From Cryomorphaceae bacterium (GTDB taxonomy: Bacteria > Bacteroidota > Bacteroidia > Flavobacteriales_D > Cryomorphaceae): a DNA stretch of 64,000 nt. The notes under the pieces were generated by a model that saw only the letters and a list, made by a program, of their open reading frames with translations, was not told where the DNA came from and did not search any database. Positions within the stretch are counted from its first letter, which is position 1; each line of letters begins with the position of its first letter. Shown one piece after another: positions 5,983-46,920 of this stretch. A program made the translations under genes and the position numbers. The stretch lies in the NCBI GenBank assembly GCA_003565555.1, contig PXBH01000074.1:1-64000 (forward strand), written 5' to 3'.

Positions 5983-7272
5983 ATGCAGAACAGAGTCGAC
6001 GTGCTTTTGGGCCTCCAGTGGGGCGACGAAGGCAAAGGCAAAATTGTGGACGTACTCACGCCCGAATACGACGTGATCGCGCGTTTTCAGGGCGGACCGA
6101 ATGCAGGCCATACGCTTGAATTTAACGGCATCAAGCATGTCTTGCACACCATTCCGTCAGGGATATTTCACGGGGATAAGGAAAACGTGGTAGGCAACGG
6201 CGTAGTGATCGACCCGATTATTTTGGCCAAAGAAATCAAAGCCTTGGAGGATATGGGCGTGGATGTAAATGCACGTCTTCTGCTCTCTCGAAAGGCCCAC
6301 CTCATCCTCCCCACCCACTGTGTGTTAGACGGCGCCTCTGAGGCTGAGAAAGGAAAAATGAAAATCGGATCCACGCTGAAAGGTATAGGCCCGACCTATA
6401 TGGACAAAACCGGCCGAAACGGACTCCGCGTGGGTGACCTTTTTGAAGAAGATTTTGCCGAGCGCTACGAGGCCTTGAAAAACAAGCACCTGAAAATACT
6501 CTCCCAGTACAATTTTGAATTCGACATCAAGGAGAAAGAAAAGACATGGATGAAAAGTGCAGATCGACTGAGAGCACTCACGGTGATTGACTCGGAGCAT
6601 TATATCAATGCCAAGGTGAAGGCCGGAAAGCGGGTACTCGCCGAGGGTGCCCAGGGCAGCCTCCTCGATATCGACTTCGGAAGCTATCCCTATGTTACTT
6701 CGTCCAATACGGTATCGGCCGGGGCATGTACGGGCCTCGGAGTGGCTCCCCGCCGCCTGGGTGAAGTCATCGGTATCTTTAAAGCATACTGCACGCGTGT
6801 GGGAAGCGGCCCTTTTCCCACGGAATTGCACGATGAAGCGGGAGAAGCCCTGAGAAAGGCCGGCAATGAATTCGGTGCTACCACGGGAAGGCCGAGAAGA
6901 TGCGGGTGGATTGACCTCCCCGCACTGAAGTACGCGGTGATGATCAACGGAGTCACACAGCTCAACATGACGAAAGCGGATGTGTTGGCGGGATTTGACA
7001 ACATCAAAGTGTGCACGGCTTATGAACTGGACGGAGAAGTGATCGACCACCTGCCCTACGATGCCGTTACCGAGCGATTGAAACCCGTGTATGAGACCCT
7101 GCCCGGCTGGAAGACGGACCTTACGGGCATGCACTCCGAGGCAGAGTTTCCCGAGGCATTAAACAACTACATCGCATACCTCGAAGCAGCGCTGGAAACC
7201 CCGATTACCATAGTATCGCTCGGACCGGACCGGACACAGACCATCGTGCGTAAAGCGGTTGCCGCTTCATAA
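5983..7272 (+). CDS. purA: Adenylosuccinate synthetase
   Basis: Joins IMP and aspartate using GTP to form adenylosuccinate, the first committed step to AMP. The 429 residues match the family. The catalytic N-terminal loop WGDEGKGK (about residues 11-18), QGGPNAGHT and the RVGSGPFPTE and TTGRPRRCGW segments are all present. It follows the STAS gene by two bases and is followed closely by the OstA-like gene. Confidence 0.97.
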   Translation: MQNRVDVLLGLQWGDEGKGKIVDVLTPEYDVIARFQGGPNAGHTLEFNGIKHVLHTIPSGIFHGDKENVVGNGVVIDPIILAKEIKALEDMGVDVNARLLLSRKAHLILPTHCVLDGASEAEKGKMKIGSTLKGIGPTYMDKTGRNGLRVGDLFEEDFAERYEALKNKHLKILSQYNFEFDIKEKEKTWMKSADRLRALTVIDSEHYINAKVKAGKRVLAEGAQGSLLDIDFGSYPYVTSSNTVSAGACTGLGVAPRRLGEVIGIFKAYCTRVGSGPFPTELHDEAGEALRKAGNEFGATTGRPRRCGWIDLPALKYAVMINGVTQLNMTKADVLAGFDNIKVCTAYELDGEVIDHLPYDAVTERLKPVYETLPGWKTDLTGMHSEAEFPEALNNYIAYLEAALETPITIVSLGPDRTQTIVRKAVAAS

Positions 7273-7300
7273 CGGCACTGTTTTTGAGTTGACCGCAGGC

Positions 7301-9121
7301 ATGCTTAAATACGCGCTCCGGTACCGAATGATCCCCGCCTTCATCGCCTTGATGACGGTGTGCGGAGGAGGCCTTTTCGGACAGACCAAGAGCAAGATTG
7401 AACTTCTGGGTGCCAAAGACCTCAAGTACGACAAGCGGTTCGGCGCCGATGCCCAAAGGTTGATCGGCGATGTACGCTTCCGACATCAGGGCGCGCTGAT
7501 GTTTTGTGACAGCGCCTACCTCTACGATGCGAGCAATACCCTCGACGCTTTCGGAAATGTAAAAATCAATCAGGGAGACACCCTTTATCTGTACGGTGAC
7601 AAACTGAACTACAACGGGGAAACCCGCATGGTGAAGGTCCGCAACAATGTGCGTCTCGAAGACGGGGAAATGACGCTCACCACCCACATTCTCGATTACA
7701 ATCGAAGAACAGAAGTAGCTGTATTCTACGACCGCGGCACCATTGTCTCGGAGAAAAATGACAATGTCCTCATTGCCTGCGAAGGCGACTATATCGCGCA
7801 AAATGAGTTTTTCCATTTTCGCGACAGCGTGGTTCTCATCAACCCGGGATACACCGTAGAGACCGACACCCTCGACTACGACAACCGCACGGAGATCGCA
7901 TATTTCGAAGGACCCACCTTCATATTTTCCGATGAAAATACCATCTACTGCGAAAACGGCTGGTATGACACCCGATCGGACCTCTCGCAATTCAACGAAA
8001 ACGCCTACCTGGACAACCAAAAACAGGTGCTGCGCGGCGACAGCCTGTGGTACTCCCGCAATGAGGGGCTGGGCCGAGCTTTCAAAGATGTATCCATTAC
8101 GGATACCGTTGACCACTACATTATCAGCGGACAAAGGGGCAATTACTATGAAAACGAGAAGCGCACCGTAGTCACCGTAGGAGCCGAACTCATTCAATAC
8201 GACGAGAGAGACTCTCTTTTCCTCCACGCCGATACGCTTCAGGCCGTAGATGATTCGGAGCGGGGCAATCTGCTCTTTGCCCACCGGAACGTACGCTTTT
8301 TCCGAAAGGATATGCAAGGCGCGGCAGACTCGATGTATTTTGCACAGCGCGACAGCACCATTTATATGTACTTCGACCCGGTGCTCTGGTCTGACGATCT
8401 TCAGATCACGGGCGACACCATGGAGATCATCAACAAAGCCGAGGGCTTGGATCGGCTTTTGGTATACCGGGATGCCATGCTCATAGATTATGTAGAGCCT
8501 GACCGCTACAACCAGATCAAGGGCCGCACCCTCACAGGCTATTTTCGGAAAAATGAGCTTTACTACGTCTTCATTCAGGGCAACGGGCAGTCGCTCTACT
8601 TTGCGATGGAGGAGGTGCGGGTCGCAGAGGACACCACCGGACTTGCAGCCGATACCGCCGCGGCTGCTTCCGCCCTTACCGTAACCGAATCAACGGAAGA
8701 TCCGGATGCGGCCGCTACGGAAATTGAAACCGACACTGCCGACCTGCGGATCGACACCCTCACGGGGGAAATTCCCGACACCCTTTCCGTCTTTACAGGA
8801 GATTCACTCCCGCCGGACACTGCCGCTGTAAAACCGAAAAAGCCCCTCACCGTACAGCGCGTGATGGGCGTGAATAAGGCCGAATGCAGCAATATCGCCA
8901 TCTACCTGGAGGACAAACGCGTACAGCGAATACGGTTTTTGGTAAGTCCGGACGGAAAATTTATTCCGATCGATCTCTTTGACAAGGACAACGCCTACCT
9001 GGGCGGATTTACATGGCAGCAATACCGCCGCCCGCTTGACCGAGCGGATATTTTCCGAAAGGCCCCGCTAATCAAAGAGGAAGACGACGGTAAAAAAAAG
9101 GGAAAGGGGAAAAAGATTTGA
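7301..9121 (+). CDS. OstA/LptA-like LPS-transport domain protein
   Basis: Secreted or periplasmic protein of about 606 residues. An N-terminal signal peptide (MLKYALRYRMIPAFIALM then a small-residue cleavage region at GGGLFGQ) is followed by repeated beta-rich OstA-like segments of the form D..N/YGD.., as in LptA and the N-terminus of LptD. The reading frame is open from 7259 inside purA, but ATG 7301 places the signal peptide correctly (ATG 7328 is an alternative). A Thr/Ala/Asp-rich linker lies around residues 450-520 and the C-terminus is basic (KKKGKGKK). An LptD-like gene is encoded convergently nearby, supporting a role in LPS transport. The precise role in Bacteroidota is inference. 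Confidence 0.82.
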   Translation: MLKYALRYRMIPAFIALMTVCGGGLFGQTKSKIELLGAKDLKYDKRFGADAQRLIGDVRFRHQGALMFCDSAYLYDASNTLDAFGNVKINQGDTLYLYGDKLNYNGETRMVKVRNNVRLEDGEMTLTTHILDYNRRTEVAVFYDRGTIVSEKNDNVLIACEGDYIAQNEFFHFRDSVVLINPGYTVETDTLDYDNRTEIAYFEGPTFIFSDENTIYCENGWYDTRSDLSQFNENAYLDNQKQVLRGDSLWYSRNEGLGRAFKDVSITDTVDHYIISGQRGNYYENEKRTVVTVGAELIQYDERDSLFLHADTLQAVDDSERGNLLFAHRNVRFFRKDMQGAADSMYFAQRDSTIYMYFDPVLWSDDLQITGDTMEIINKAEGLDRLLVYRDAMLIDYVEPDRYNQIKGRTLTGYFRKNELYYVFIQGNGQSLYFAMEEVRVAEDTTGLAADTAAAASALTVTESTEDPDAAATEIETDTADLRIDTLTGEIPDTLSVFTGDSLPPDTAAVKPKKPLTVQRVMGVNKAECSNIAIYLEDKRVQRIRFLVSPDGKFIPIDLFDKDNAYLGGFTWQQYRRPLDRADIFRKAPLIKEEDDGKKKGKGKKI

Positions 9122-44397: not shown

Positions 44398-45375
44398 TCA
44401 ACGGTTGAGCAACCAGGCAAAAATAAGCGGTGCGACTATTGTTGCATCGCTTTCCACAATGAATTTCGGGGTATCGATGTCGAGCTTTCCCCAGGTGATT
44501 TTTTCGTTGGGAACCGCCCCGGAATATGAGCCGTAGCTCGTTGTAGAATCAGAAATTTGGCAAAAATAGCTCCAGAAGGGAATGTCCTCCATTTCCATGT
44601 CCTGATAGAGCATGGGAACCACACAAATCGGAAAGTCGCCCGCAATTCCTCCGCCGATCTGGAAAAAACCCACACCCTTTCCGCCGGAGTTTTTCACGTA
44701 CCAGTCGGCCAGCCAAGTCATATACTCAATTCCGGACTTTACGAGAGAGGGCTTCAGCTCTCCTTTGATGCAGTAGGAGGCAAAAATATTGCCCATCGTG
44801 CTGTCTTCCCAGCCCGGCACTACGATGGGGAGGTTCTTCTCCGCGGCAGCCACCATCCAAGAATCGGCGGGATCAATTTCGTAAAACTCCTTCAAATCGC
44901 CGGAGAGAAGCATTTTGTACATATACTCATGGGGAAAGTAGCGCTCACCGGCCTCTTCGGCTTTTTTCCATTGTTTTACGATCTTGCTCTGAATGCGCCT
45001 GAAAGCTTCTTCCTCGGGAATGCAGGTATCGGTCACCCGATTGAGCCCCCGCTCCAAGAGGCCCCACTCCTCTTGCGGTGTGAGGTCACGGTATTGCGGC
45101 ACGCGCTCGTAATGCGTGTGGGCCACGAGGTTCATAATGTCCTCCTCGAGATTGGCCCCGGTGCAGGAAATGATGTGCACCTTATCCTGTCGGATCATTT
45201 CGGCCAGACTCTTCCCCAGTTCGGCGGTGCTCATGGCGCCCGCCAGGGTGATCATCATTTTGCCCCCTTCAGCGAGGTGTTTTTCGTAGCCCTTGGCTGC
45301 ATCCATCAGCGCCGCGGCGTTGAAATGCTTGTAGTGGTGTTCGATAAATTTCGAGACAGGTCCTCGTTCACTCAT
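44398..45375 (-). CDS. Deoxyhypusine synthase-like protein
   Basis: An approximately 325-residue NAD-dependent enzyme of the deoxyhypusine/homospermidine synthase superfamily. The N-terminus (MSERGPVSKFIEHHYKHFNAA), TLAGAMSTAELGKSLAEMI and the C-terminal lysine region ITWGKLDIDTPKFIVESDAT are visible. The latter aligns with the substrate-lysine loop of eukaryotic DHS (SWGK), so the catalytic Lys is kept. ATG 45375 is preferred; the frame is open to 45405. Bacteria lack the eIF5A target, so the bacterial role is open; a polyamine product is likely given the speA neighbour. Confidence 0.85.
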   Translation of the reverse strand: MSERGPVSKFIEHHYKHFNAAALMDAAKGYEKHLAEGGKMMITLAGAMSTAELGKSLAEMIRQDKVHIISCTGANLEEDIMNLVAHTHYERVPQYRDLTPQEEWGLLERGLNRVTDTCIPEEEAFRRIQSKIVKQWKKAEEAGERYFPHEYMYKMLLSGDLKEFYEIDPADSWMVAAAEKNLPIVVPGWEDSTMGNIFASYCIKGELKPSLVKSGIEYMTWLADWYVKNSGGKGVGFFQIGGGIAGDFPICVVPMLYQDMEMEDIPFWSYFCQISDSTTSYGSYSGAVPNEKITWGKLDIDTPKFIVESDATIVAPLIFAWLLNR

Positions 45376-45465: not shown

Positions 45466-46920
45466 TCACCGATCGGCAAGACCGATGGTTTCCTCCGTGT
45501 TTTCGGCCGGGGGAGTGCCGCTTTCTTCTTGAGAATAGCCCAAGAGCTTCATCATGGCGTCCGCTTTCTGCCTTCCGGAAAAAACGCGGTACGTCAGGTT
45601 GCCCTTTGAATCGCGATCGATCACGAGCTGCTGAGGGTTGGGGATGAGGCAGTGCTGCAGTCCCCCGTAGCCCCCCACGGTATCTTGGTAGGCTCCCGTA
45701 TGGAAAAAACCGATGTACAAGGGGTTCTCCTTGTTGTACCGCGGCAGGTAAATGGCGTTGATGTGCTGCTCCGAATTGTAATAATCATCACTGTCACAAG
45801 TAAGGCCGCCGAGAAATACCCGCTCATAGTCACTGTTCCACCTGTTGAGCGGCAGCATAATGAACCGCTTGTTGATGGCCCATGAATCGGGAAGGGTGGT
45901 CATGAAGGAGGAGTCGATCATATTCTATCGTTCCTTGTCATTCTGCCGCTTTTGGTAGATGACCTTAAAGAGGGTTCCCCCGCTCTCCCCTACGGTAAAA
46001 CTGCCGAACTCGGTGTATATATGCGGATCGTCGATGCCCGCATCTCGCGAGAAGGCCTTGGTTTGCGCGATGATCTCCTCCACCATATAAGCATAGTCAT
46101 AGTCGAAAGCCAAGCTGTTCTTGATAGGAAATCCTCCGCCGATGTTCAGCGAATCCAGGCTTTCACACACTTCCTTGAGCCTGCCGTACACCGTGAGGCA
46201 TTTATTGAACTCGTTCCAATAATAGGCATTGTCGTTAATTCCCGTGTTGATGAAGAAGTGAAGCATCTTCAACTTAATTTTGGGATGGTTCTGAATCACA
46301 TCGCGGTAGAAGGGAGCAATGTTGCGGTAGCCGATCCCGAGCCTGCTCGTATAAAATTCGAATTTCGGCTCCTCCTCACTGGCAATCCGGATACCGATCT
46401 CAAAAGGATTGTCAATTAAGGCATTGAGCACGTCCACCTCTTGGTAATTGTCAATGACGGGCAGCAATTTATAACCCGCATTGATCAGGTGTGCGATCCG
46501 CTCGAGGTAGTCATCGGTCTTATAGCCGTTACACACCACATAGCGGTCTTTGTCAAGCTTGCCCGCATTGTAAAGATGCTCCACTATGTCGAGGTCGTAA
46601 GCCGATGAAGTTTCGATGGAAATATCGTTTTTTAAGGCCTCCTCAACCACATGGGAAAAATGCGAACTTTTCGTGCAGTAACAGTAGTTGTAGCTGCCTT
46701 TGTAATCCGTCTTTTCCATGGCATCTCGGAACCATCCTTTCGCCTTCCGAATGTTTTCGGATATCTTGGGGAGGTAGGTAAACTTGAGCGGTGTCCCGTA
46801 TTTTCTGACCACCTCCATCAAGGGAATGCCGTGAAACTCGAGCTCCTCGCCGTTCAGGCGAAATTCCTCCTGGGGGAAGTCAAAGGTTTGTTCGATCAGG
46901 TCTGCGTATTTAATCTTCAT
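45466..46920 (-). pseudogene. speA: Arginine decarboxylase (SpeA-like), interrupted by an in-frame amber codon
   Basis: A fold-III PLP decarboxylase (arginine to agmatine). From ATG 46920 (MKIKYADLIEQTFDFPQEEF) the frame holds the PLP Lys in YCYCTKSSHFSH and runs to TAG at 45925-45927; it resumes in the same frame without any shift at AAT ATG ATC (45924 onward) with MIDSSFMTTLPDSWAIN, and contains the C-terminal catalytic motif GLTCDSDDYYNSEQ. The junction reads QNDKER-stop-NMIDSS where relatives, as I recall them, carry W. TGG to TAG is one base change. The N-terminal piece alone (331 aa) lacks the catalytic Cys. The rest of the sequence shows no decay, so a recent mutation, a sequencing error, suppression or reinitiation at ATG 45921 are all possible. 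Confidence 0.85.

Follow-up and report, generated by a model that had tools for sequence, protein, structure and literature searches.

The in-frame amber codon in speA of an uncultured member of the Flavobacteriales is probably either a very recent mutation or an error in the sequence

In an uncultured Flavobacteriales bacterium, the polyamine-making gene speA carries an amber codon about two thirds of the way along an otherwise well-preserved frame. This raises the question of whether the gene has just been broken, whether the base is wrong, or whether an enzyme is still made across or around the stop. As detailed below, a very recent mutation or an error in the sequence seems to account for the TAG, and not a novel route to the enzyme.

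The speA frame and its amber codon

Within the window, that is, the whole 64-kb stretch of DNA that was analysed, the speA frame lies on the minus strand from 46920 (ATG) to 45466 (TGA) and comprises 484 codons, counting the stop codon at 332. The minus strand at the break reads ...GAC AAG GAA CGA TAG AAT ATG ATC GAC TCC... and translates into QNDKER, the stop and NMIDSSF in a single frame that is open on either side. Re-reading the sequence and its translation thus bears out the first-pass annotation, which had described an in-frame TAG without frameshift and with family sequence on both sides. The gene is interrupted only this once, with no shift of frame at the TAG (45925..45927, minus strand) and no further stops or shifts behind it. 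In a codon-usage scan of the window, this TAG ranked first among stops with coding-like sequence in frame on both sides, and the next-ranked stops were mostly ordinary adjoining genes or antisense frames.

The earlier identification of the gene as the arginine decarboxylase speA is confirmed by profile matches. Codons 1-331 (45928..46920, minus strand) encode the PLP-binding barrel domain of a PLP-dependent arginine decarboxylase of the alanine-racemase fold, with matches to PF02784 (8.5e-16) and to positions 60-365 of the NCBIfam PRK05354/speA profile, and with 85-90% identity to the congeners. The C-terminal part (45466..45924, minus strand) continues in the same frame up to the TGA, matches positions 462-594 of PRK05354 (3.6e-20), is 81% identical to its counterpart in genome G002 and keeps the conserved columns. 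The two halves match the SpeA profile in the correct order, N- then C-terminal part, and SpeA profiles are the best matches. The NCBIfam cut-offs (369 bits for PRK05354, 624 bits for TIGR01273) are reached by neither half; the intact congener protein also scores below cut-off (161.9 bits), and both models appear to be built on long-form SpeA. For the intact congener, a structure model of the protein has solved SpeA structures as its best matches; it is of moderate quality, with a pLDDT of 70.5 that falls below 50 at residues 326-351, and is too weak to place Trp332. As had been anticipated, the half with the catalytic Cys is cut off by the stop: the motif GGLTCDSDDYY, with its TCDSDD core in frame, lies past the TAG and hence outside the polypeptide that holds the barrel.

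In length and in sequence (about 62-85% across its full extent), the present gene is like the short-form SpeA of Flavobacteriales and Bacteroidota, and it shares with the congeners the gene order of speA followed by a SpeY-like gene. It differs from these relatives by the amber codon at the position of their invariant Trp332.

Conservation around the stop and the polyamine pathway

The residue expected at the break was Trp (TGG), and the relatives agree: all 97 with a readable motif have W at position 332, and the column is invariant among 24 aligned relatives. The codon is TGG in four other family members compared and in the two congeners; the first-pass annotation had proposed a comparison with close strains. 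In the order as a whole, speA was matched in 262 of 399 genomes, and the present TAG is the sole internal stop among the matches listed (about 160, from these 262 speA-bearing genomes). Several apparent internal stops in the relatives' first matches proved to be the ordinary termini of relatives with a shorter gene and disappeared with a shortened query. The amber codon is not a family feature. It is missing from the intact orthologues and resembles the lesion of nonsense pseudogenes with one disabling mutation, namely one substitution in an intact remainder, unshared by relatives. Among the order's 238 good genomes, 61 have no speA match, so speA is dispensable over a long time scale.

Behind the stop, 130 codons are conserved as in intact relatives and nearly all family-invariant residues are kept; a change at N407H, considered as a lost invariant, was rejected since His is found there in 20 of 96 relatives too. 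Synonymous divergence from the sister genome, estimated for the N-terminal part, is about 1.7 per site, an approximate value near saturation. Because synonymous sites are saturated, dN/dS ratios were unusable and lineage-specific changes were counted in their place. Lineage-private amino-acid changes amount to 5 in 123 positions past the stop and 6 in 331 before it, which is not a significant difference (Fisher p = 0.18). In a non-functional C-terminal half of any great age on the branch to the sister genome, numerous replacements and additional stops would be expected; the TAG is thus very recent, unreal or harmless. Given the undecayed C-terminal half and the synonymous divergence, it fits only on the last small part of the branch.

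Directly downstream of speA lies an intact deoxyhypusine-synthase-like gene (44398..45375, minus strand), a probable SpeY (homospermidine synthase), with 91-92% identity to the congeners. It matches PF01916 (3.5e-40), and its best NCBIfam match is 'homospermidine biosynthesis protein' (5.4e-31, under the cut-off). Deoxyhypusine-synthase homologues can serve as homospermidine synthases, SpeY (PMC9992855; PMC10407285). An agmatinase-like gene is intact elsewhere in the genome; with both genes intact, the pathway is otherwise kept. The search of the whole genome revealed no known putrescine source besides SpeA and no other arginine or ornithine decarboxylase, pyruvoyl ADC (PvlArgDC), OKR_DC_1 and AdoMet_dc being without match. 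The second PF02784 protein of the genome was considered as an alternative decarboxylase and rejected, as it is LysA. A plasmid search returned distant hits only.

A full SpeY-like gene is present in none of the 11 speA-less members of the family or order that were tested. Since speA and the SpeY-like gene tend to co-occur and SpeY is intact here, it looks as if speA was working until very recently. In the speA-less genome G022, only a 32-residue SpeY-like remnant is seen (C25:40370-40465).

Nonsense allele or base error

We tentatively take as the best reading that a very recent single-base nonsense mutation (TGG to TAG) broke speA in the sampled strain, with a base error in the draft assembly as a close second. 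Both had been among the four options of the first-pass annotation, a recent pseudogene and an assembly error, and both are still live, as sequence alone cannot separate them. Should the cell indeed carry this base, as we infer, TGG would have become TAG at codon 332 and translation would stop after residue 331. The product would retain the PLP barrel without the C-terminal half that bears the catalytic Cys, and would presumably be inactive. Because the search revealed no second decarboxylase for arginine or ornithine, the strain would then need imported polyamines or agmatine; otherwise it would represent a transient loss-of-function variant in the population.

The Trp in every readable relative, the lack of another stop among the listed matches, the kept C-terminal half and the long-term dispensability of the gene all argue for a nonsense allele, as do the presence of RF1 and the lack of a UAG-reading tRNA among 31. 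The surroundings of the gene argue against it: the SpeY-like and agmatinase-like genes are intact in a pathway that is complete and conserved around speA, and a lasting speA-minus, speY-plus state would be unusual, the SpeY-like gene being gone as well from the speA-less genomes tested. With no alternative decarboxylase found, a true null would be costly, and the draft is fragmented (237 contigs).

The same observations weigh in favor of a TAG that is absent from the typical cell, where speA would be ordinary and intact and the consensus would hold an assembly base error, a minor-strain variant or a damaged read. We regard this as a serious possibility, if a somewhat less probable one. It accords with the absence of decay past the TAG and with the retention of a pathway for which SpeA is the only putrescine source found. 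The genome is a draft of 237 contigs, 96.7% complete, and its closest relative with a name is a bin from a sediment metagenome; changes of the C-to-T/G-to-A type, the commonest kind of error, also count for a base error. However, no other gene in the window is broken likewise, which argues that the assembly is not generally poor, and base errors are as a rule rare in well-covered short-read contigs.

The sister bin G001 also has an odd speA lesion, and a possible assembly fault there would add to the case for a base error. In this congener, an exact 83-bp copy of the gene's own downstream stretch, 155 bp apart (L144 (G001:C19), plus-strand 7391-7473 and 7236-7318), replaces the codons for about NSEQHINAI and shifts the frame. 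It may stem from faulty assembly (the contig contains 278 N) or from genuine copying over a short distance. As an independent lesion, it would favor the nonsense allele, in keeping with weakened selection in the genus. If both lesions are real, speA would be under weakened selection in the genus; otherwise one or both would be assembly faults.

A real nonsense allele would catch a polyamine pathway in the act of losing its first step, with the later steps still in place, in a genus that has a second member with a damaged speA. An error would instead call for caution in inferring pseudogenes or recoding from draft genomes. Under either outcome, the known picture of translation is unchanged.

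Split enzyme and recoding

Two further options would preserve the activity. In the first, ribosomes would end at the TAG and restart at the ATG of Met334 (45919..45921, minus strand), and chains of 331 and 151 residues would assemble into an active decarboxylase, which we consider unlikely. The first-pass annotation had placed this candidate re-initiation codon correctly, at 45921, but had put it 4 bases beyond the amber codon, whereas the actual spacing is three (AAT). This short distance and an AAGGA upstream favor re-initiation. The position of the break is also suggestive. The long-form biosynthetic SpeA proteins (E. coli 3NZQ, Vibrio vulnificus 3N2O, Campylobacter 3NZP) have the same fold and are matched by both halves, but are longer by a segment of about 100 residues just where the present frame breaks; the profile match against long SpeA ends near 350-370 and restarts near 470-490, where the counterpart of MIDSSF lies. 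A chain break at this insert point could be tolerated. Both halves are conserved, and the break falls within the low-confidence region (residues 326-351) of the intact-relative model. Oat arginine decarboxylase is reportedly active as two clipped polypeptides (Malmberg & Cellino 1994, cited in PMC5645388); there, the two chains of one SpeA-type sequence reportedly arise by precursor proteolysis, not from a stop codon.

The split enzyme is at most structurally conceivable. Intact relatives invariably have Met334, so the ATG predates the stop and is no adaptation; nothing has been gained for re-initiation. Shine-Dalgarno sequences are in general little used in Bacteroidota, and the enzyme would have to withstand the loss of an invariant Trp. 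Relatives in which the break separates two genes, the test set out in the first-pass annotation, were looked for in the genomes of the order and none was found. Genomes with speA in two pieces were examined as possible split genes and rejected, as most of the pieces run out where a contig stops, and in no case does codon 332 form the boundary between two adjoining genes. That a split enzyme has just been born, its two chains joining at the site of the large insert that longer relatives accommodate and so saving the cell's only arginine decarboxylase, seems to us a shade more doubtful still.

Least probable of all is readthrough or suppression, with UAG in speA decoded as Trp or some other amino acid: the frame past the TAG is open and conserved, but the RF1 gene is full length and above cut-off, the 31 tRNAs found in this incomplete assembly, from which some tRNAs are missing, include a single tRNA-Trp (CCA) and none with CUA (a suppressor tRNA had been proposed earlier), no relative has the codon, and the RNA past the TAG folds no better than shuffles (z = 0.12), which together make recoding unlikely. 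Neither a UAG-reading tRNA among these 31 nor a loss of RF1 thus accompanies the codon. Within the window, TAG terminates three of the 33 long frames, one of them presumably through the internal stop of speA itself.
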